Source: an uncultured Porphyromonadaceae bacterium
GTDB lineage: Bacteria; Bacteroidota; Bacteroidia; Bacteroidales; Muribaculaceae
Reading direction: 5' to 3'
Assembly (NCBI GenBank): GCA_947177185.1
Contig: CAMWTJ010000005.1
Span: 1 to 64,000, forward strand
Length of the DNA stretch: 64,000 bases
The notes under the pieces are model-generated. The model saw only the letters and a program-made list of their open reading frames with translations, made no database searches and had not been told where the DNA came from. A program made the position numbers and the translations under genes. Positions 29,326 to 39,857 of the stretch are shown piece after piece (positions within the stretch are counted from its first letter, which is position 1; each line of letters starts with the position of its first letter).

Positions 29326-30276
29326 TCAGCTGTGCTCGGAAAGGTCCACGAGGTGGTGGATGATGGCAAAAATGGTAAGGCCGGCCGTGGAGTGGATGCC
29401 GAGCTTGGCGCTTATGTTGCGGCGGTGGGTGGTGACAGTGTGCACCGACAGGCACAGCTCGTCGGCTATTTCTTTGTTCGACATGCCGCGCGCCACGCAC
29501 CGCACTATGTCTTTTTCGCGTTCGCCCAGGGCATTGAGTTGCTCCGATTCCTCCTCGGCGGGCTCTTCGGGATTTTCGTCGTCGACGAGGCGGGTGCGCA
29601 GCGTGTTTTCAAGCGCTTCCACAGCCGGAACAAACAGGCGGCTTTCCACGTCGAAATGCGCCATAAGGTCGCGTTCGCATATAATTATATCGAACAGGGC
29701 GGCGCTCAGCCGTGCGTTGTCTTTCTGGTTGTAGTGATATATGAATATGTCTTTAAGCTCGTTGAGCTTGGCTGCCATGTGGCCGTGGTTCACAGAAAAC
29801 TTGGCAATGCTGAACTGCTCGTCGACGCGTCCGTCGAGCAGGGCGTCCACGTAGGCGAACACCTCATTGTTTTCGTGCTCCATGTGGTTTTTCACCTCCA
29901 CCACATAGTCGTCGTAGAATTTCATGAGCAGAAACGCTACATCGTTGGTGTCGAAATAGTTGATGGCTTCTATCAGGTGGTGGCGTATGCGCGGGAGCGT
30001 CACGTCGAGAAACGACGAGTGCGCCATGCGCAGGTAGCCCATGAGCGACGGTAACGCTACCGATTCCGGCGAGCATCCGTAGCCGCTCAGCAGGTTGCAC
30101 ACGGCCAGGAAGGTGTCGGTATCCACTCCGTTGGCGCGGCACACTTCGTCGATTGAGCTGTCGCCGAACCCGAAGGCTATGTCGAAGCGGCTGATGGCCA
30201 TCAGCAGCATGTTGTTGTCGCGGATAAGCTCGCGCATATTGTTGCGGGCGTTGTAGCCCCGTTGCTTGTCGATCAT
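29326..30276 (-). CDS. RIC/hemerythrin-like domain fused to LuxR-type helix-turn-helix
   Basis: A 316-residue probable transcription regulator. Residues 13-65 resemble the ScdA N-terminal domain (DUF542), but the usual CC pair is replaced by FGFG. Residues 95-225 look like the four-helix di-iron domain of RIC/YtfE proteins, with likely ligands in RIRHHL (His99/100), HMEHENNEVF (His131, His134/Glu135), NHGH (His164/166) and HFDVESRLFVP (His207, Glu211). An acidic linker (232-246) leads to a GerE HTH (247-305, GEREKDIVRCVARGMSNKEIADELCLS). It could sense NO, oxygen or iron. The tracked start at 30300 falls inside the -7 box, so the ATG at 30276 is used. It is divergent from the haem operon. Confidence 0.85.
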   Translation of the reverse strand: MIDKQRGYNARNNMRELIRDNNMLLMAISRFDIAFGFGDSSIDEVCRANGVDTDTFLAVCNLLSGYGCSPESVALPSLMGYLRMAHSSFLDVTLPRIRHHLIEAINYFDTNDVAFLLMKFYDDYVVEVKNHMEHENNEVFAYVDALLDGRVDEQFSIAKFSVNHGHMAAKLNELKDIFIYHYNQKDNARLSAALFDIIICERDLMAHFDVESRLFVPAVEALENTLRTRLVDDENPEEPAEEESEQLNALGEREKDIVRCVARGMSNKEIADELCLSVHTVTTHRRNISAKLGIHSTAGLTIFAIIHHLVDLSEHS

Positions 30277-30297: not shown

Positions 30298-30305
30298 CAA
30301 AGGTA
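30298..30305 (-). promoter_or_regulatory. -7 element of the RIC-HTH regulator gene
   Basis: TACCTTTG on the minus strand, 21 nt upstream of the ATG at 30276. It overlaps the upstream ATG of the tracked ORF, ruling that start out. Confidence 0.7.
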
Positions 30306-30326
30306 CGGAGAAATTCTGTGCAACAA

Positions 30327-30421
30327 AATACTCAAAAGTAACTAATTGATGCGTTGATGTGCCGAAAACGCCACGGGCGGCATAGGCCGTCGGGCCGGAA
30401 ATAACCCCAAAAATGAGTATT
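30327..30421. promoter_or_regulatory. Inverted repeat AATACTCA / TGAGTATT between regulator and haem operon
   Basis: AATACTCA (30327-30334) and TGAGTATT (30414-30421) are exact inverted copies 79 nt apart. One is close upstream of the regulator promoter and the other abuts the -33 region of the operon promoter, positions suitable for autoregulation and operon control. Confidence 0.45.
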
Positions 30422-30450
30422 GCCTCTGTTTTCCGGGCGGTCTAATTTTG
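30420..30450 (+). promoter_or_regulatory. Promoter of the calycin-hmu operon
   Basis: TTG (30420-30422) and TAATTTTG (30443-30450) are spaced 20 nt apart, with the first ATG 29 nt downstream. The TGAGTATT half-site overlaps the -33 element, so a bound protein could affect RNA polymerase. Confidence 0.7.
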
Positions 30451-30479
30451 CACTCGGAAAAATCAAACACATTTCAGAT

Positions 30480-31325
30480 ATGAAGAAAGCAATCTTATTT
30501 TCGCTCGTTGCTGTTTCCGCGGCTCTGGCCTCCTGCAGCGACTCAAATTCCGACGAACCCGCAATCAATGCCGCCGAGGCAGTGGCGGGAGTTTATGACG
30601 GCTACACTGTGGCCACGAGCCAGTATTTCGGCAACATGGTGGCTGTGGATCAGAAAGTCACCGTCGTGGCCGTGTCGGCCGACCGCGCAAGCGTAAGCTG
30701 CAACTCCGACACCTGGGGCGCCTTCACCATCGCCGACGCCGCAGTAGTGGCCACAGAAGGCGGTGCCTACGCCATAAGCGGCACGGGAGTGTCAGTGATG
30801 GGCATGCAGGGACAGAACTCCAAGGAGTACACCTGCGACATGAGCGGAACCGTCGACGCTTCGGGCAATGCCGAATTCAGCTTCAGCTGCCCGCAGGAGA
30901 TGGGCGGCCTGACCATACGCTTCGCGCAGGGCGCAGTGCCTGCGGAAATAGTGGTGCCCGGCACATACAAAGGCTACACCGAGGCTTCGAGCGCATATTT
31001 CCAGGGAATGACCGCCGACGGACAGACCATCGCAATCACAGCCGCCGCCGACGGCAAGTACGACGTGGCCTACACATCCGACACGTGGGGTGAGTTCAGC
31101 GTCAAAGGCGCTGCTGTCACTGCCGACGGCAATGTGTTTCGCCTCTCCGGCGAAGGCGTGGCCACGATGGGCATGGGCGGAAACGTAAGCGAGTACGCAT
31201 GCACATTCGAGGGCACAGTCGATGCCGCCAAAGAAGATCCTTATTTCAAGTTTGCCGTGGCAGCGGTGATGGGCGGTCTTACGGTTGAGTTCCACTCCGG
31301 CGACATGCCCGGCGAAGCCGAATAA
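30480..31325 (+). CDS. Tandem calycin-like lipoprotein
   Basis: A 281-residue lipoprotein (lipobox LASC, Cys19) made of two homologous repeats of about 115-120 residues. Repeat 1 (about 36-151) contains VAGVYDGYT, SQYFGNM, NSDTWGAF, SGTGVSVMGM and MGGLTIRF. Repeat 2 (about 156-277) has the matching VPGTYKGYT, SAYFQGM, TSDTWGEF, SGEGVATMGM and MGGLTVEF. These resemble the calycin-like (PF13944) domains found with HmuY in Bacteroidales; calycins are small beta-barrels that bind hydrophobic ligands, so haem or porphyrin binding is a reasonable inference. It is the first gene of the hmu operon, 4 nt before hmuY. Confidence 0.8.
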   Translation: MKKAILFSLVAVSAALASCSDSNSDEPAINAAEAVAGVYDGYTVATSQYFGNMVAVDQKVTVVAVSADRASVSCNSDTWGAFTIADAAVVATEGGAYAISGTGVSVMGMQGQNSKEYTCDMSGTVDASGNAEFSFSCPQEMGGLTIRFAQGAVPAEIVVPGTYKGYTEASSAYFQGMTADGQTIAITAAADGKYDVAYTSDTWGEFSVKGAAVTADGNVFRLSGEGVATMGMGGNVSEYACTFEGTVDAAKEDPYFKFAVAAVMGGLTVEFHSGDMPGEAE

Positions 31326-31329
31326 CGGG

Positions 31330-31971
31330 ATGCTCGGGAAACTCATTTCATGCGTTATAGTGCCGGGGGCAGCAGTGCTGCTCCCGGCATGCAGCGGCAT
31401 CATGGGAGGCATCTACGACGATCCGCTCGAAGAAACGGTGGCGGGCTATGGATTCGTGGAGGCTTCGGACGGTGTGCGCCCGGGCAGCATATATATCGAC
31501 GCTACCGACTATACGCGGTGGACCTACATCGATTTCAGCGCCATGCGCATCGACACGCTGCATGTGTCGGACCCGACTCCCGCGGAGTGGGATATCGCCA
31601 TCCACCGCTACGATGTGAAGACCAACGGAGGCTCGGCGTGCGCCACCGGGGCCACGGGCTTTGACTCGCCGCTGCTCACACCGGGCGATATGTCGCCCGA
31701 CGTGTGGACCACGCAGACCATAGTCACCGATATGAGCACCATGATGGACGGCTATCTCAGCTACGTAGAGTCTTGGTACAGCCCGGTGGTGTCGCAATGG
31801 CTCGATGTGGACAAGTCCACGATGCCGCCCGTGTACACGCTCTCAGGCAAGGTGTATGTGGTGCGCACTGCCGATGGCCGCCACGTGGCTCTCCGGCTTG
31901 CCGATTACATGAACACGGCCGGTGTAAAGGGCTATATGACCATAGAATATCTTTATCCGTTTCATCCCTGA
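31330..31971 (+). CDS. hmuY: HmuY family haem-binding lipoprotein
   Basis: A 213-residue surface lipoprotein (lipobox LPAC) of the HmuY haemophore family, which takes haem from host proteins and hands it to HmuR. Family text is clear: YIDATDYTRWTYIDF, AEWDIAIHRYDVKTNGGSA and a final KGYMTIEYLYPF strand. The mature part would form an all-beta right-handed fold. In P. gingivalis HmuY two His ligands bind haem; other Bacteroidales homologues use Met, and the ligands here are not assignable by eye. The start at 31330 is 4 nt after the calycin gene stop; hmuR follows after 6 nt. Confidence 0.9.
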   Translation: MLGKLISCVIVPGAAVLLPACSGIMGGIYDDPLEETVAGYGFVEASDGVRPGSIYIDATDYTRWTYIDFSAMRIDTLHVSDPTPAEWDIAIHRYDVKTNGGSACATGATGFDSPLLTPGDMSPDVWTTQTIVTDMSTMMDGYLSYVESWYSPVVSQWLDVDKSTMPPVYTLSGKVYVVRTADGRHVALRLADYMNTAGVKGYMTIEYLYPFHP

Positions 31972-31977
31972 CGATTT

Positions 31978-33915
31978 ATGAGAGCTACAGCTATCACTAT
32001 ATGTGCGGCATGCGCATGCACGGCCGCGGCGCAGACCGCGTCGCTCACCGACGCGCAGCTCGACTCGCTCGAGCGTGCGTGGGCGCGCGAACTCAACACT
32101 GTGGTCGTGACCGGCACGCGCACTCCCAAACTGCTCAAAGATTCGCCCATACTTACACGCGTCATCTCGGAGGCCGATATCCGCAAGGCCGATGCGACCA
32201 ACATCAGCGACCTGCTGCAGACCGAACTGCCAGGCATCGAGTTCAGTTATTCCATGAACCAGCAGGTCAACCTCAACATGCAGGGCTTCGGCGGCAACTC
32301 CGTGCTGTTTCTTGTCGACGGCGAAAGGCTGGCCGGCGAAACACTCGACAATGTGGACTACAACCGCCTGAATCTCGCCGGCGCCGGACGCATAGAGATA
32401 GTCAAGGGCGGCGCGTCGGCGCTGTACGGCTCAAACGCCGTGGGTGGTGTGGTCAATATCATCAGCAGCGAGAGTGCCGACCCGTGGCGCCTGAACCTCA
32501 ATGCACGCTACGGCGCCCACAACGAACAGCGCTACGGCGCCGCGCTCAGCCTCAACCGCGGCCGCGTGAGCAGCTCCACCACTGCGCAGTTCCACCATAT
32601 CGACTCATACGACATGGACGGCCCCGGCGATTACACGCGCTTCTACGGCGGATACAACTGGAGCGTGAAGGAGCGCCTGACCTGGACACCCGTCGACCGG
32701 CTGAAACTGATAGCACGCGCCGGCTACTATTTCCGCCAGCGCAACGCGCAGGCGGCCTCGCGCGACCGATACCGCGACCTCTCCGCCGGCTTGCGCGGCA
32801 TATACACGTTCTCTCCGGCATCGGACCTGGAACTGTGCTACGGATTTGACGAGTACGACAAAAGCGACTATCTCAGACTGAGCGGACGCGACGTGCGCAA
32901 ATACAGCAACGTGCAAAACAGCCTGCGCGCCATATTCAACCACACTTTCGGCGGACGGCATATCCTTACCGCCGGCGCCGATGTGATGCACGACTATCTG
33001 CAGAGCTATCAGTTTGCCGACGGCGGAGTGAAGGAGCAGACCACGGCCGATGTCCTCGCACAGTTCGACATGAATTTTACCGACCGGCTGAATATTATAG
33101 CCGGAGGCCGCTACGACTATTTCTCGGAAGCCGGCATGCAGCACCTGTCGGCGCGGCTGAGCACCAAATATACGCTCGGACGCGTCAATCTGCGCGGCTG
33201 CTATTCCGGCGGTTTCCGCGCTCCCACGCTGAAAGAGATGTACATGGATTTCGACATGGCCGGAATATTCATGATCTACGGCAATCCCGAACTCAAACCC
33301 GAGTCGAGCCATAACTTCCAGCTTTCGGCCGAATATACCCGCAACCTGCTCAACTTCAATGTGGGCGGATTCTGCAATCTGGTCGACAACCGCATCACCA
33401 CTGCCTGGAACCAGGCTCTGGGCGGACAGATGTACACCAACATAGGCCGGGTGAACATAGCCGGGTTGGACGCCAACCTGTCGTGGCGCCATCGCTGCGG
33501 TGCGGGAACGCGCCTGTCGTACATATACACGCACGAGCACGTGCGCCACGGCGAGCCCTACACGGCGTCGACGCGCCCGCACACGGCCACCATGCGTTTC
33601 GACTATACGCGCAGGTGGGGTGGCTACGGACTCACGGCCGCTCTGAGCGGCCGCGTGCTGTCGGCCGTCACTGTCGACGAGTACACGTCGCTCACCGACT
33701 ACAGCGATACTGAAAAAGTGCATTATCCGGCCTACACCATGTGGAAGCTCAACGTCAGCCAGACTGTACTGCAGGGTCTTACGGTGACGCTTTCCGTAGA
33801 CAATCTGTTCAACTACGTACCCAAATATTACTACAACAATTCGCCCACAACCAACGGCATCACTTTTGCCGCCGGAGTGTCGGTCGACATAGAAGAGTTT
33901 TTCAAGAAAAAATGA
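31978..33915 (+). CDS. hmuR: TonB-dependent haem receptor HmuR
   Basis: A 645-residue outer-membrane receptor with a signal peptide ending TAAA-Q, a plug domain (about residues 38-155: TVVVTGTRTPKLLKDSP, LLQTELPGIEF, MQGFGGNSVLFLVDGERLAG, RIEIVKGGASALYGSNAVGGVVNII) and a 22-stranded barrel. The haem-receptor motifs FRAPTLKEMY and GNPELKPE lie in the barrel, flanking a region with candidate Met/His ligands. It lacks the carboxypeptidase-like N-terminal domain of SusC receptors. It imports haem delivered by HmuY using TonB energy. Its stop overlaps the hmuS ATG by 4 nt. Confidence 0.93.
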   Translation: MRATAITICAACACTAAAQTASLTDAQLDSLERAWARELNTVVVTGTRTPKLLKDSPILTRVISEADIRKADATNISDLLQTELPGIEFSYSMNQQVNLNMQGFGGNSVLFLVDGERLAGETLDNVDYNRLNLAGAGRIEIVKGGASALYGSNAVGGVVNIISSESADPWRLNLNARYGAHNEQRYGAALSLNRGRVSSSTTAQFHHIDSYDMDGPGDYTRFYGGYNWSVKERLTWTPVDRLKLIARAGYYFRQRNAQAASRDRYRDLSAGLRGIYTFSPASDLELCYGFDEYDKSDYLRLSGRDVRKYSNVQNSLRAIFNHTFGGRHILTAGADVMHDYLQSYQFADGGVKEQTTADVLAQFDMNFTDRLNIIAGGRYDYFSEAGMQHLSARLSTKYTLGRVNLRGCYSGGFRAPTLKEMYMDFDMAGIFMIYGNPELKPESSHNFQLSAEYTRNLLNFNVGGFCNLVDNRITTAWNQALGGQMYTNIGRVNIAGLDANLSWRHRCGAGTRLSYIYTHEHVRHGEPYTASTRPHTATMRFDYTRRWGGYGLTAALSGRVLSAVTVDEYTSLTDYSDTEKVHYPAYTMWKLNVSQTVLQGLTVTLSVDNLFNYVPKYYYNNSPTTNGITFAAGVSVDIEEFFKKK

Positions 33916-36900
33916 AACAGCGAAAGAAGACTATTATCATCGCCGCGTGCTGCGTGGCGCTTGTGGCCGCGGGTGTGGCCGCATGGCGCGCCTATGCCTC
34001 GGCCACACGGATAGCCTTTGTCAATTACCAGGCCATCACGCTCGGGCAGATAGCCAAGGCGTGCGACAACTCGTTCGTGCGCCTCGCCGAGCTCCCGGTG
34101 GACGAACTGGAGCGCGCGGCCGACTTTGATTTGGTGCTGGTCAACGGCATGGGGCTGCGCATCACCGAGGAGCAGCGTGCCGCACTCGCAGGCGCGGCCG
34201 AGGCCGGAACACCTGTGCTCACCACCGCGGCCACCAATCCGCAGAACTATATCGTGAGCGTCGACTCCGTGGACGCCGAGTTCATCAGGCAGTATCTGGC
34301 CGGTGGCAAGGCCAACTATAGGAATCTGCTGCGATACGTGCGCAAGTTTGTCGACGGCAAGAAACTCTTTGCCGACGAACCTTCCGACCCCGTCGTGCCT
34401 GCTTCGTCGCTGCTGTACTATCCCGGAGCCGATAATGGCGACGACAAGGGCTTCGCGTCCGTGGCCGAATACGAGGCGTGGCTGGGCAGCCGCGGCAAAT
34501 GGCGTGCGGATGCGAAGCGAGTGCTCATCACCGGCCAGATGGGAGTGCCCGACAGCCTCGTGACTGCGCTCGAGCGCAGAGGCCACATGGTGTATTGCGT
34601 AAGCTCCATACAGCCCTTCATCATGGCCGGACATGCCGACTCGGTGGCACCCGCAGCAATGATAAATTTCGCCCACGGACGCATGGGCGATATGGTGGCC
34701 GACTATCTGCGCACGCGCAACATCCCGCTGTTTGCACCGCTCAACGTAAACCGTGACTATGACGAGTGGATGGCCGACAAAATGGGTATGAACGGCGGTT
34801 TTTTGTCGCAGAGTGTGGTCACCCCCGAGATAGACGGCGCCCTGCGCCCCTATGTGCTGTTCGCGCATTTTGAGGGCGCTGACGGGCTGCCGTACGTGGC
34901 CGCCATACCCGACCGTCTGGAAGACTTTGCCGCTACGGTGCACAATTACATCGGTCTGCGCGACAAAGCCAATTCCGACAAGCGCGTGGCCATATTCTAT
35001 TTCAAAGGTCCGGGTCAGAACGCTCTCGTGGCCGAAGGCATGGAGGTGGCGCCGTCGCTGTTCAATCTGCTCACGCGTCTGCGCGCCGAAGGCTACAATG
35101 TGGACGGGCTGCCGGCCTCGGCCGCTGAGCTCGAGCGCATGATCGGCGAGCGCGGCCGCGTGTTCAACGGCTATGCCGGCGGCGCGATGTCAGAATTCGT
35201 GGAAAACTGCTCTCCCGAACTTGTTTCGGCCGAGAGCTATGGCGACTGGTGCGAAAAGGCACTGTCGCCCGAGATGCGTGCCGAGATAGACGCCGTGGAC
35301 GGCGCTTTCCCCGGCCACGGCCTTTCCGATGGCCACGGCAGCCTGGCCATCGCGCGCCTGCAGTTCGGCAACGTGGTGCTGATACCGCAGACCGCCGCCG
35401 GAATCGGCGACGACGACTTCAAAATAGTGCACGGCACGGACGCAGCCCCGCCGCACGCCTACGTGGGTGCCTACCTTTGGGCCCGCTATGGCTTCGGCGC
35501 CGACGCTCTGATGCATTTCGGCGCGCACGGCTCGCTGGAGTTTACGCCACGCAAGCAGGTGGCTCTCGGCAGCACCGACTGGTCGGACCGCCTCGTGGGC
35601 ACGCTGCCGCACATATATGTCTACTCCACATCCAATGTGGGTGAGGCCATGATGGCCAAGCGCCGCGGCTATGCCGGCATAGTCAACTATCTGACTCCGC
35701 CGTTTCTGGAGAGCAACGTGCGCGGCATATACAAGAACCTCGCCGATGCCATAGCGGCCTACAACGGCGCGCGCACGCAGCAGGACAGCACGCGCACGGC
35801 GCGTCTGGTCAAGAAATACACCGTGGACCTGGGCATACACCGCGAGCTGCGCCTCGACAGTGTGCTCTCGGTGCAGTATTCGCCCGACGACATCGCGCGC
35901 ATAGAGAATTTCGCGGAAGAGCTCGCCAACGAAAAAATAGCCGGTGCGCTCTACGTGATGGGACGCCCCTACGAGGATGCGCACATCACATCCACCGTGG
36001 AGGCTATGACCATCGACCCCATCGCGTTCAGCCTTCAGAAGCTGCATGGCGGCGACATCAGAAACCTGCGTGCGCAGGCGCGCAGCCTTGTGCGCTCGGG
36101 CGTGGAGCCCGACGACAACGCGCTGTGCCGCCTGGCGGGAATCACACAGGCCGAGCTCGACAGCGCGCGGGCGCTGCAACAAGCCATCGAGGGCTCGCGC
36201 GACATGCTCTCGCGCATGATGGTGATGGGGGCCATGATGCCCGCGCCCAAGGCAGCGCCGGCGGCGCGGCTTGCCGACCGTCCGGCCACAGGCGGCACGC
36301 ACAGGATGATGCCGGGCATGTCGCCCGACAAGGCTCTCGCCATGGCCCGGAAGATGGGCGCCTCGGAGGAGGCCATAAAGAAAATGGAGGCGGCGATGAA
36401 GCGTAAAAACGTGAAGCCGGGTGCCGCAGCTGCGCCTCACGGCGCATCCCGCAGCATGGGCGGCACGTCGGAGCTCAGCAAGGAGCAGATGGATTTCGCT
36501 CTTGCAGTGGGCGAGGTGGAGCGCGCGCTGCGCAACGTCCGCCGCTACCGCAACGCACTCGCAGAAAGTCCCGAGGCCGAACTGACGTCAATAGTCAACG
36601 CTCTTGCCGGCGGCTACATTGCCCCCACTTCCGGCGGCGACCCTGTGCTCAATCCCGAAATTCTGCCCACGGGGCGCAATATGTTTGCGGTAAATGCCGA
36701 GGAAACACCCTCGGCCGTGGCGTGGGAAAAAGGCAAGGAACTTGCAGAGAACACCATAGCCATGTACCGCAAGGCCCATGGCGACTCAATCCCCCGTAAA
36801 GTGAGCTACACGCTCTGGAGCAGCGAGTTTATAGAAACCGAAGGCGCCACCATAGCGCAGGTGCTGTATATGCTCGGCATTGAGCCGGTGCGCGATCCGT

Positions 36901-38174
36901 TCGGCCGTGTGACCGATATACGGCTCATACCGTCGGCCGCTCTCGGCCGACCCCGCATCGACGTAGTGGTGCAGACCTCCGGCCAGCTGCGCGACCTCGC
37001 GGCTTCCCGTCTGTTCCTTATAGGCCGTGCAGTAAGGATGGCCGCGGAAGCCGAAGGCGATGTATATCCCAACTATGTGGCCGAGGGAGTCGTGGAGTCC
37101 GAAAGGGTGCTCGTGGGCAAGGGCGTGACGCCCAAAGAGGCACGCGAGCTGTCCACGGCCCGAGTGTTCGGCGGGGTCGACGGCAACTACGGCTCCGGGA
37201 TTCAGGGCATGGTGGAGGCCGGCGACCGCTGGGAGGATGAAAGCGAGATTGCCGAAACCTATATGGCCAATATGGGCGCCATATACGGCAGTGAGGAAGA
37301 CTGGGAAAAACTCCGCGACCATGCTTTCGAAGCGGCGCTCACACGCACCGATGTGGTGGTGCAGCCCCGTCAGAGCAACACATGGGGCGCGCTCAGCCTC
37401 GACCATGTGTATGAGTTCATGGGCGGCATGAACCTTGCCGTGCGCAATGTCACGGGCAAGGACCCCGACGCCTACCTCAGCGACTACCGAAACCGCAACC
37501 GCGCGCGCATGCAGGAAGTCAAGGAGGCTATAGGCGTGGAGAGCCGCACCACTATTCTGAATCCGGCCTATATAAAGGAAAAAATGCGTGGCGGCGCGGG
37601 CGACGCATCGGCCATGGCCGATGTGGTGCGCAACACCTATGGCTGGAACGTGATGAAGCCCGAAGCCATCGACGACGAACTGTGGGACGACATCTACGAT
37701 ACCTATGTGGCCGACCGCAACGGTCTGGGCACAAAGGACTATTTCAAGTCGGTCAACCCGGCCGCGCTGCAGGAAATGACCGCCGTGATGCTCGAAACGG
37801 TGCGCAAAGGCATGTGGGATGCGTCGGCCGAGCAGATTCAGGCCATGGCCGAGCTGCACACCGAACTCGTGCGCGACCACGGCGCTGCCTGCTCGGGATT
37901 TGTGTGCGACAACGCCGCCTTGCGCAAGTTCATAGCCTCACATTCCGCTCCTGAGGCCGCACAGGCCTACAATGCCGCGGTAGCGTCGGTGCGCGCCGAG
38001 AATATCAGCGGAGCCGACACAGACGGCACAGTGATGAAAAAAGAGGAAATGAACGCCGGCGCTACGTCTACAAGCCGCGTCAACGGCCTGCTGATTGCCG
38101 CCGGAGTGCTGGTGGCGCTCATTGGCCTGATAGTGCTTGCCCGCCGGCGCCGCAAACTCAATGGAGAGCTGTAA
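33912..38174 (+). CDS. hmuS: Membrane-anchored CobN-like chelatase HmuS
   Basis: A 1420-residue homologue of the cobaltochelatase CobN / Mg-chelatase H subunit. It has an N-terminal membrane anchor (residues 7-26) and a C-terminal one (LLIAAGVLVALIGLIVLARRRRK), so the bulk is probably periplasmic. CobN-family segments are GPGQNALVAEGMEVAPSLFNLLTRL, FGAHGSLEFTPRKQVALG, NYLTPPFLE, GRPYEDAHITSTVEAM and the C-terminal GFVCDNAALRKF. Residues about 765-855 form a Met/Ala/Lys-rich low-complexity insertion. In Bacteroidales HmuS acts on haem (metal removal) rather than in B12 synthesis, and the hmuYR context supports that. It overlaps hmuR by 4 nt and hmuT by 1. Confidence 0.9.
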   Translation: MKQRKKTIIIAACCVALVAAGVAAWRAYASATRIAFVNYQAITLGQIAKACDNSFVRLAELPVDELERAADFDLVLVNGMGLRITEEQRAALAGAAEAGTPVLTTAATNPQNYIVSVDSVDAEFIRQYLAGGKANYRNLLRYVRKFVDGKKLFADEPSDPVVPASSLLYYPGADNGDDKGFASVAEYEAWLGSRGKWRADAKRVLITGQMGVPDSLVTALERRGHMVYCVSSIQPFIMAGHADSVAPAAMINFAHGRMGDMVADYLRTRNIPLFAPLNVNRDYDEWMADKMGMNGGFLSQSVVTPEIDGALRPYVLFAHFEGADGLPYVAAIPDRLEDFAATVHNYIGLRDKANSDKRVAIFYFKGPGQNALVAEGMEVAPSLFNLLTRLRAEGYNVDGLPASAAELERMIGERGRVFNGYAGGAMSEFVENCSPELVSAESYGDWCEKALSPEMRAEIDAVDGAFPGHGLSDGHGSLAIARLQFGNVVLIPQTAAGIGDDDFKIVHGTDAAPPHAYVGAYLWARYGFGADALMHFGAHGSLEFTPRKQVALGSTDWSDRLVGTLPHIYVYSTSNVGEAMMAKRRGYAGIVNYLTPPFLESNVRGIYKNLADAIAAYNGARTQQDSTRTARLVKKYTVDLGIHRELRLDSVLSVQYSPDDIARIENFAEELANEKIAGALYVMGRPYEDAHITSTVEAMTIDPIAFSLQKLHGGDIRNLRAQARSLVRSGVEPDDNALCRLAGITQAELDSARALQQAIEGSRDMLSRMMVMGAMMPAPKAAPAARLADRPATGGTHRMMPGMSPDKALAMARKMGASEEAIKKMEAAMKRKNVKPGAAAAPHGASRSMGGTSELSKEQMDFALAVGEVERALRNVRRYRNALAESPEAELTSIVNALAGGYIAPTSGGDPVLNPEILPTGRNMFAVNAEETPSAVAWEKGKELAENTIAMYRKAHGDSIPRKVSYTLWSSEFIETEGATIAQVLYMLGIEPVRDPFGRVTDIRLIPSAALGRPRIDVVVQTSGQLRDLAASRLFLIGRAVRMAAEAEGDVYPNYVAEGVVESERVLVGKGVTPKEARELSTARVFGGVDGNYGSGIQGMVEAGDRWEDESEIAETYMANMGAIYGSEEDWEKLRDHAFEAALTRTDVVVQPRQSNTWGALSLDHVYEFMGGMNLAVRNVTGKDPDAYLSDYRNRNRARMQEVKEAIGVESRTTILNPAYIKEKMRGGAGDASAMADVVRNTYGWNVMKPEAIDDELWDDIYDTYVADRNGLGTKDYFKSVNPAALQEMTAVMLETVRKGMWDASAEQIQAMAELHTELVRDHGAACSGFVCDNAALRKFIASHSAPEAAQAYNAAVASVRAENISGADTDGTVMKKEEMNAGATSTSRVNGLLIAAGVLVALIGLIVLARRRRKLNGEL

Positions 38175-38875
38175 TGGAACTGGTTGTTTTGGTAACAATG
38201 CTGCTGGTGGGCCTCGGCTTTGCTCTCAAGCTCACCTTCCACGGACCAGCAGGGCGCCTTGCGCTCTGCGCCGTGGCGGCACTGACGGTAGTGATGGCTC
38301 AGGACTGGGCCATCACCCGCTCGAAAACGCAGATAGCCGAGTGGCTTGAGAGTCCGGGCCTGATGCTCGACACGGCTGTGCTTCTCACGGTAGATGTGGC
38401 CATGCAGCTCGCTTTCTGCTGGCTGGAAGCCCGCAGGCAGGCGGCAGGCGGCAGGCTTGGCGGCGCGGCGCTTGCCGTGCGCACGCTTGTGGCCTGGGTG
38501 CCGGGGCTGCTGATATTTCCTGTGCTTATGGCAATGCTCGCAGAGCTTGTGTTCGCGATGCCGGGCGTGGAATTCTCCACGCTGACGCTGTGTGCTGCCG
38601 CCGCCACATTCGCGGCTTTTGGCGGTGCCGCAGCTTTGGCCCGGCTGCTGCTGCCTGAGGCCGACATACGCCTTGAACTCATGTTTCTACTGAATATACT
38701 CATAGCCTCTCTCGGGGTTGTGGCCACCGTGAACGGCCGCACCGTGGCGCTGGGCACAAACTCGGTGGAGTGGGGTGCCCTTGCCGCTGTAGGTGCGTTG
38801 CTCGCAGCGGGCACTCTCGCGGGTGCGTGTGTGTACAGAATAATGTTAAAAAGAAAAATAGCGAAATTGCAATGA
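38174..38875 (+). CDS. hmuT: HmuT-position integral membrane protein
   Basis: A 233-residue protein with about six hydrophobic helices and few polar loops. It has no motif I can name beyond its place in hmuYRSTUV, where the T gene encodes an uncharacterised membrane protein. The start overlaps the hmuS stop by 1 nt (TAATG) and its own stop overlaps hmuU by 4 nt, so it is surely made together with them. It may anchor or energise HmuS. It is not related to the ABC-type periplasmic HmuT of Gram-negative haem importers, despite the shared name. Confidence 0.75.
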   Translation: MELVVLVTMLLVGLGFALKLTFHGPAGRLALCAVAALTVVMAQDWAITRSKTQIAEWLESPGLMLDTAVLLTVDVAMQLAFCWLEARRQAAGGRLGGAALAVRTLVAWVPGLLIFPVLMAMLAELVFAMPGVEFSTLTLCAAAATFAAFGGAAALARLLLPEADIRLELMFLLNILIASLGVVATVNGRTVALGTNSVEWGALAAVGALLAAGTLAGACVYRIMLKRKIAKLQ

Positions 38876-39474
38876 ACGTCATTTCCAATGTCCTTTACTG
38901 GATTTCCACCGGGCTGCTTGTGCCGGTGATAGTGCTTCTGATTTTTTTCTTTATCCGCGCGCTGGTGCTTGTGGGCGCGTTTTTCGGGCAATATATGCAT
39001 CAGCGTAAGGCGTCCGACGCCCTGCGCCGTGCCGTGGACAGTATCGCTGAAGCCGGCACTGCTGCGGCGTCGGACAACGCTCTGCCTGCTGCCTCCGCGT
39101 CGGTTGCGGCGGCCTACGCGCGGCGCATAGTAGCGGCCGCCGGACAGCCCGCACGCATCGACCTCCTGCTTTCGGAGTTCGAGCTCGACGCCGACAAGAA
39201 CGTGTCCACCTCGAGGGTGCTCACCAAGATGGGGCCCATACTCGGCCTGATGGGCACGCTCATACCCATGGGCCCTGCGCTTGTCGGTCTGGCCGCGGGC
39301 GATATCGCTTCCATGGCTTATAACATGCAGGTGGCGTTTGCCACCACGGTGGTGGGACTCGTGGTGAGCGCCATCGGCTTTCTGACCCAGCAGGCCAAGG
39401 AGCGCTGGGCTGTGCGCGATCTCGCCACGCTTGAGTTCCTTGCCGAAACCGTAAAACAGAAAGGTGCGCTATGA
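38872..39474 (+). CDS. hmuU: MotA/TolQ/ExbB-like protein HmuU
   Basis: A 200-residue inner-membrane proton-channel-type protein. TM1 lies at residues 9-38; TM2 and TM3 lie in the C-terminal half, which carries the ExbB signature LTKMGPILGLMGTLIPMGPALVGLAAGDIASMAYNMQVAFATTVVGLVVSAIGF (shown here only as landmarks: GLMGTLIPMGPAL and AFATTVVGLVV). With HmuV it could form a dedicated ExbB/ExbD-like motor that energises HmuR or HmuS. The start at 38872 uses the ATGA overlap with hmuT; the tracked ORF is longer and unconserved. Confidence 0.9.
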   Translation: MNVISNVLYWISTGLLVPVIVLLIFFFIRALVLVGAFFGQYMHQRKASDALRRAVDSIAEAGTAAASDNALPAASASVAAAYARRIVAAAGQPARIDLLLSEFELDADKNVSTSRVLTKMGPILGLMGTLIPMGPALVGLAAGDIASMAYNMQVAFATTVVGLVVSAIGFLTQQAKERWAVRDLATLEFLAETVKQKGAL

Positions 39475-39806
39475 CACGCCGACGCCGCAGTCTGCTTCGC
39501 CGCAGCGAAGACACCGACCCCATGAGCGTGGTCAGCAACCTTTTTGATGTGGCCATGGTTTTTGCCGTGGCGCTGATGGTGGCTCTGGTCAGCCGCTACA
39601 ACATGACCGAGATGTTCTCGCAGGAAGATTTCACCATGGTGAAAAATCCCGGCAAGGACAATATGGAGATTATCACCAAGGAGGGCGAGAAGATAAACCG
39701 CTACACACCGTCCGACGACAGTTCCGACCCGTCGTCGAACCGCGGCAAGCGCGTCGGCGTGGCCTACGAACTTGAAAACGGCGACATAATATACGTGCCC
39801 GAATAA
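39471..39806 (+). CDS. hmuV: DUF2149 family protein HmuV
   Basis: A 111-residue protein with an Arg-rich N-terminus, DPMSVVSNLFDVAMVFAVALMVALV as one membrane helix with an Asp at its beginning (the ExbD-like arrangement), and a periplasmic tail ending GVAYELENGDIIYVPE. DUF2149 proteins accompany ExbB-like and CobN-like genes, also in methanogens. It is the last hmu gene, overlapping hmuU by 4 nt, and a terminator follows 22 nt later. Confidence 0.88.
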   Translation: MTRRRRSLLRRSEDTDPMSVVSNLFDVAMVFAVALMVALVSRYNMTEMFSQEDFTMVKNPGKDNMEIITKEGEKINRYTPSDDSSDPSSNRGKRVGVAYELENGDIIYVPE

Positions 39807-39828: not shown

Positions 39829-39857
39829 GAGGTGCTCTCACGAGTGCCTCCTTTCCC
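39829..39857 (+). terminator. Terminator of the hmu operon
   Basis: GAGGTGCTC (39829-39837), loop TCAC, and GAGTGCCTC (39842-39850) form a 9-bp stem with two G-T pairs, followed by CTTTCCC. It stands between hmuV and the convergent sodB. Confidence 0.6.

Follow-up and report, generated by a model that had tools for sequence, protein, structure and literature searches.

What does a calycin-like lipoprotein do at the head of a haem uptake operon? The question is raised by a stretch of 64,000 nucleotides (nt) from an uncultured Porphyromonadaceae bacterium (contig CAMWTJ010000005.1; hereafter, the window), in which a gene of this kind, cal, precedes the genes hmuYRSTUV. Among the anaerobic routes described by which gut Bacteroidota obtain iron from haem, the hmu operon is the main one. 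HmuY is regarded as the protein that captures the haem, and the leading gene does not appear in the accounts and models of the system, which have six genes. The analysis presented here indicates that cal is very probably a standing member of the Hmu system, with a part in haem acquisition. Its genetic context tips the balance slightly towards a surface carrier of haem, or of a haem-bearing complex, that serves the receptor HmuR.

Open reading frame (ORF) calls and Pfam searches placed seven co-directional genes in the order cal-hmuY-hmuR-hmuS-hmuT-hmuU-hmuV on the plus strand of the window at positions 30480-39806, with spacings of +4, +6, -4, -1, -4 and -4 nt. This agrees with an earlier note made from the letters of the window, which had described seven plus-strand genes with short gaps or overlaps and the Y-R-S-T-U-V order of Porphyromonas gingivalis behind a two-domain calycin-like lipoprotein. 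Pfam matched Calycin_like (PF13944) twice in the cal product (P0001) with 48.3 bits against a cut-off of 30, and the two halves were identical at 54 of 123 positions. The HmuY family (PF14064) was not matched in this product, and by its sequence cal is not a HmuY. The best solved match of the adjoining hmuY product was 3u22, a putative HmuY-like heme binding protein (E 2e-66). In the source genome (82 contigs, 2.23 Mb), HmuY and PF13944 are each represented by a single gene, and the two genes are those of this operon. Judged by its closest HmuS relatives, the genome probably belongs to the Muribaculaceae.

The only match to the pattern TTG-N20-TAnnTTTG in the 179 nt before cal (30301-30479) was the one listed in Table 1. 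Of 63 related loci, 51 had TAnnTTTG no further than 150 nt ahead of cal, where shuffled sequences would be expected to give 3.5, and it was absent mainly at loci where a PepSY_TM gene precedes cal; there, the PepSY_TM gene is likely the first of the transcript. A Sigma70 promoter scan gave no match, as expected for Bacteroidota. The terminator that had been claimed for the operon end was upheld in part, in that a hairpin follows hmuV but its T tract is weak. Because the shared promoter lies before cal and the hairpin after hmuV, the hmu transcript is predicted to start with cal.

HmuY to HmuV are encoded by six adjacent and co-directional genes, which places the operon in the hmuYRSTUV class. 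HmuS de-chelatases are recognized by a Met-rich insertion, a head Met-Gly, a neck HGR, HFG(T/A)HG and LSLDHxxEFMGG (PMC12583661). The window HmuS was found to have all of these, namely the Met-rich insertion, the head Met-Gly, HGR, HFGAHG and LSLDHVYEFMGG, and by these sequence features it is a predicted haem de-chelatase, an activity defined by the NADH-dependent conversion of haem to protoporphyrin IX. The hmu-like operons of the cobalamin type are defined by an upstream cobalamin riboswitch (PMC10100974). No such riboswitch was matched in the window or in the eight related HmuY-less loci that were scanned, and with the HmuS hallmarks retained, assignment to the cobalamin type was rejected.

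To see how widespread cal is, the best 80 named loci by HmuS similarity were scored using ORF calls and profiles built from the window proteins, and 68 of these, the window included, had a readable 5' part. The arrangement was cal-Y-R-S-T-U-V in 47, cal-R-S-T-U-V in 14 and Y-R-S-T-U-V in 7. The protein that the earlier note had called extra is thus additional to the six genes but not rare, cal leading 61 of the 68 loci in a sample biased by similarity. Across 393 genomes sampled from the whole order, the A1 profile gave a hit at E <= 1e-12 in 12, all directly upstream of a HmuY hit, and about a quarter of the approximately 50 genomes with strong HmuY hits had such an A1 hit. The suggestion that cal extends the pathway specifically in the window genome was therefore incorrect, as the arrangement is widespread and a calycin-like gene labelled "cal" is already marked in maps of Bacteroidota hmu operons (Fig. 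1 legend of PMC12106395), so that its presence in some hmu operons is not new. Within the window's own family the operon is patchy, with a close HmuS in only 17 of 149 genomes and in 2 of the 10 listed in its genus. Two further observations concern individual records. One titled Lachnospiraceae (L018) has a Muribaculaceae-like hmu operon (HmuS 65% to that of the window), and its bin or label is probably wrong. At L029:1975-6322 (+) hmuS appeared as two adjacent ORFs of 280 and 1165 amino acids (aa), and it was split alike in genome G462; both splits are frameshifts or assembly errors.

In 14 loci hmuY is lacking, and hmuR either follows a single-domain cal (type B) at a distance of 1-62 nt or shares up to 28 nt with it; since the gap is at most 62 nt there is no room for hmuY. 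A HmuY missed by the profile was rejected as an explanation, as no HmuY-like ORF was found at E < 10 in these loci. Whole-genome searches detected no HmuY anywhere in 13 of the 14 genomes, for which no completeness figures were reported; among them is that of an isolate, Duncaniella muris DSM 103720. Inflation of the cal identity by iterated profiles was likewise ruled out, since all five type B proteins that were scanned passed Pfam's own cut-off for PF13944. Apart from cal, the genes ahead of the receptor in these 14 operons encode no surface ligand-binding protein, and in all 14 HmuS keeps HGR, HFGxHG, LSLDHxxEFMGG and the Met-rich insertion. A PepSY_TM gene lies directly before cal in 8 of the 14, and in none of the cal-Y operons. 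Such a protein (502-534 aa) was recorded directly upstream of type B cal at L005, L007, L011, L012, L017, L022, L036, L046 and L068, and may reduce haem iron ahead of de-chelation.

The receptors of these operons were also distinct. In trees built with FastTree, without bootstraps, the HmuR proteins of the 14 cal-only operons formed one clade (Shimodaira-Hasegawa support of 100), whereas on the HmuS tree the cal-only state was scattered among cal-Y operons, the starred branches forcing at least seven changes. The lipoprotein and receptor therefore travel together. It appears from these sequences that, with hmuSTUV as a common core, a cassette of type B cal and its receptor is exchanged with one of type A cal, HmuY and a different receptor. 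This exchange was preferred to the simpler view that a single operon lineage had lost HmuY, since the receptor clade changes too.

A natural fusion provided a further link between the two lipoproteins. At L084:5767-6777 (-), from genome G290 of another family, a Calycin_like domain (35.7 bits, cut-off 30) is inserted in the N-terminal part of HmuY at residues 69-192, and the fusion is the first gene of a Y-R-S operon. In a congener (L085:6001-7050 (-)) HmuY is interrupted at the same position by a sequence that gave no Pfam match. The fusion, as read from the sequence, is independent evidence that both proteins work together. That long HmuY proteins (about 345 aa) are calycin fusions in general was rejected except for this one genus, L086 and L087 having no insert. 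Calycin-like domains were also seen in other settings. In genome G335 a 565-aa leucine-rich-repeat-like protein with a C-terminal calycin-like domain (L131:4509-6206 (-)) follows hmuR and hmuY and is followed in turn by a 209-aa ORF, a 513-aa ORF and hmuS. At L123-L127, a calycin-like lipoprotein of 156-158 aa, with a PIAMGGEFP-like motif in most, adjoins a TonB receptor; no hmuSTUV was seen in the vicinity, and the two may form another receptor-lipoprotein pair.

AlphaFold2 predicted two eight-stranded barrels for the window cal (predicted local distance difference test 91, predicted template modelling score 0.80), spanning residues of about 37-150 and 161-273, and one barrel for a type B protein (predicted local distance difference test 87). 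The top solved match of the window protein (E 5e-12), and also of type B, was 3rwx (BF2706 of Bacteroides fragilis); the cal encoded in the hmu operon of B. fragilis (L058) is near-identical to it. Hemophilin, TbpB, siderocalin, lipocalins, nitrobindin and the SusCD accessory protein BT_2261 gave weaker fold matches which were not decisive, and a search of a viral fold library gave no useful match. The loops were more conserved at one barrel end (entropy 1.18/0.67/0.84) than at the other (2.33/1.59/1.29), and it is at the better-conserved end that the loop methionines sit. M107, M141, M230, M232 and M264 (window numbering) were invariant in 20 two-barrel type A proteins, as were M85, M145 and M147 in type B. 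Met residues are the only conserved donors, with almost no His, and the conserved barrel mouths also hold Tyr and Trp. Met-Met haem ligation that prefers reduced haem has been described for several gut Bacteroidota HmuY proteins (PMC12106395).

The lipobox Cys19 of the window cal is followed by the acidic stretch SDSNSDE, an export-like signal, and at least two acidic residues at +2 to +8 were present in 43 of 56 cal proteins. The window protein is thus predicted from its sequence to be a surface-exposed lipoprotein of the Bacteroidota kind. In B. fragilis, BF9343_2621 (283 aa) was protease accessible and heavily biotinylated on cells; it is numbered beside the HmuY homologue BF9343_2622 and was flagged as near a TonB receptor gene (PMC4319957). 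The L058 cal is also 283 aa, and corresponds to BF9343_2621 by length and by gene order and neighbourhood. In Bacteroides thetaiotaomicron, iron depletion raised BT_0498 264-fold and the adjoining hmuY, BT_0497, 291-fold (PMC10434189). From its position, and from Bacteroides relatives that have cal there (L038, L049), we infer that BT_0498 is cal. If so, expression of cal independently of the hmu genes, which the earlier note had named as the outcome that would speak against its proposal, is contradicted in this species. The placing of cal in the haem pathway was in turn supported by the shared promoter, the conserved linkage, the replacement of HmuY in 14 operons and the HmuY with a calycin insert, and the binding of haem or porphyrin that the earlier note had proposed for it is plausible.

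These data suggest a mechanism in which the cal lipoprotein would be exported to the cell-surface side of the outer membrane, displaying two lipocalin-like barrels, with the invariant Met and the Tyr and Trp at their conserved mouths. There it would capture haem, probably reduced Fe(II)-haem via Met, or a haem-bearing complex, and would hand the haem to HmuR either directly or through HmuY. HmuR would then import it using energy from HmuU/V, and HmuS would remove the iron. In the HmuY-less operons, a one-barrel type B cal would capture alone, with its own HmuR clade. Haem as the ligand, its coordination by Met and the hand-over to HmuR are the steps we infer. In its broadest form, the proposal is that calycin-like lipoproteins are a second class of Bacteroidales haemophore, unrelated to HmuY, each with a cognate HmuR, acting together with HmuY in the majority of gut operons and on their own in HmuY-less operons of the Muribaculaceae type, and capturing reduced haem through Met at the barrel mouth; we offer this tentatively, as it may well prove too broad.

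Several observations weigh against a role for cal as a haem carrier. It is missing from P. gingivalis and from 7 of the 68 loci and so is not indispensable, and the survey set was not random, leaning towards relatives of the window. Among proteins that bind haem or siderophores, hemophilin, siderocalin and nitrobindin were matched in fold weakly, with E of 2e-3 or worse and low template modelling (TM) scores. A Met motif (VMGG or G[AS]MP-type) that speaks for the carrier role was found in 63 of 64 hmu cal proteins and in none of 17 calycins from other loci, but the hmu set itself had served to define the motif, making this contrast partly circular and only suggestive, and the non-hmu calycins compared were more divergent. 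The absences would suit a passenger lipoprotein with no part in haem uptake, which is barely credible given the linkage in several families, the replacement of HmuY and the fusion into it. It is also very unlikely that cal binds another metal or cofactor, such as Cu(I) through Met clusters, and merely shares an iron-starvation operon. The Met-only donors, with almost no His, and the Met-rich mouth would fit this, but the strong hits are linked exclusively to hmu genes, cal substitutes for HmuY, and Met-Met haem ligation is common in the hmu pathway.

We consider it unlikely, with an appreciable chance left to it, that cal serves the receptor as an accessory subunit, forming a surface lid or scaffold on HmuR and binding no ligand itself, in the manner of the additional lipoproteins in SusCD complexes. 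Co-inheritance with one HmuR clade, the pairing of calycin lipoproteins with other TonB receptors outside hmu (L123-L127) and a fold likeness to BT_2261, the accessory chain of SusCD BT2261-2264 (3h3i, TM 0.48/0.54; 5fq6_E, TM 0.48/0.51), are all consistent with such a subunit. However, the BT_2261-type matches were not significant (E of about 0.02-0.06), the conserved face is the Met- and aromatic-rich mouth and not the barrel side, and the 14 HmuY-less operons encode no other candidate for ligand capture before the receptor. A smaller chance is given to a protein as the ligand of cal in place of free haem, either a haem protein of the host (haemoglobin, haem-albumin) or some other carrier, as TbpB binds transferrin. 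The form of cal as a two-barrel surface lipoprotein and the matches to TbpB and the haemophore hemophilin would agree with this, but those matches were weak (E 0.002-0.013, TM below 0.33) and a conserved mouth rich in Met points to a small ligand. A surface carrier of haem or another metalloporphyrin, or of a haem-bearing complex, with HmuR as its partner remains the reading we favour.

The features of the locus are collected in Table 1. The divergent gene upstream of cal encodes a protein with a GerE domain and a Hemerythrin (HHE) match slightly below the 25.3 cut-off. A homologue adjoins the hmu operon in divergent orientation in 19 loci, the window and 18 others, and the protein is a candidate local regulator sensing iron, oxygen or nitric oxide; no mention of it was found in the passages on hmu that were consulted.

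Table 1. Coordinates of the hmu operon of the window and its flanking features
Feature	Position	Strand	Basis or remark
Hemerythrin-LuxR (HHE + GerE) regulator, divergent, candidate local regulator	29326..30276	-	GerE 60.2 bits; Hemerythrin 23.4 bits
TTG-N20-TAATTTTG, Bacteroidota-type promoter	30420..30450	+	End 29 nt 5' of cal start codon
cal, two-domain calycin-like lipoprotein, 281 aa	30480..31325	+	PF13944 x2; AlphaFold2; 3rwx match
hmuY, haemophore-like lipoprotein, 213 aa	31330..31971	+	PF14064 115.7 bits (cut-off 27)
hmuR, TonB-dependent receptor, FRAP and NPEL motifs	31978..33915	+	Pfam TonB receptor
hmuS, CobN-like haem de-chelatase (predicted)	33912..38174	+	CobN 949.7 bits; hallmark motifs
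hmuT, predicted inner-membrane protein	38174..38875	+	Pfam: no family; synteny
hmuU, MotA/TolQ/ExbB-family	38872..39474	+	Pfam MotA_ExbB
hmuV	39471..39806	+	Pfam DUF2149
Hairpin GAGGTGCTCTCACGAGTGCCTC, GC-rich, possible terminator	39829..39850	+	Free energy (dG) -15 kcal/mol, z -3.3; T tract weak

An earlier survey also found hmu operons without HmuY and left undecided whether HmuY had diverged or the operons had a different role (PMC10100974). As a calycin lipoprotein fills the HmuY slot in the 14 operons described here and their HmuS hallmark motifs are kept, this question becomes directly testable, with a named protein. Substitution of HmuY by cal, the cassette exchange and the HmuY-calycin fusion were not found in the literature searched; what is new here is the HmuY-less cal operons, the joint travel of HmuR and lipoprotein, the calycin insert in HmuY and the barrel-mouth Met motif.

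Compared with the hmuYRSTUV loci of P. gingivalis (PG1551-56) and B. thetaiotaomicron (BT_0491-0497), the window has the same six genes in the same order and the same HmuS hallmarks, and differs from P. gingivalis in the extra leading gene. The gene and operon marked in PMC12106395 are of the same kind as those of the window, but that article gives cal a label only, with no function, HmuY-less operons or fusion. BF2706 (3rwx) shares the fold and operon position of the window cal, whereas its second barrel is of type B (GAMPI) and the window protein has two type A barrels. In Porphyromonas endodontalis, an additional gene upstream of hmuY, POREN0001_0445, is shown as an operon member, but its product has a type IX secretion system sorting domain, is barrel-like and is not annotated as a calycin (PMC11208336). 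HmuY itself resembles cal in being a surface lipoprotein encoded before hmuR, with Met ligands in its gut forms, yet it belongs to a different family.

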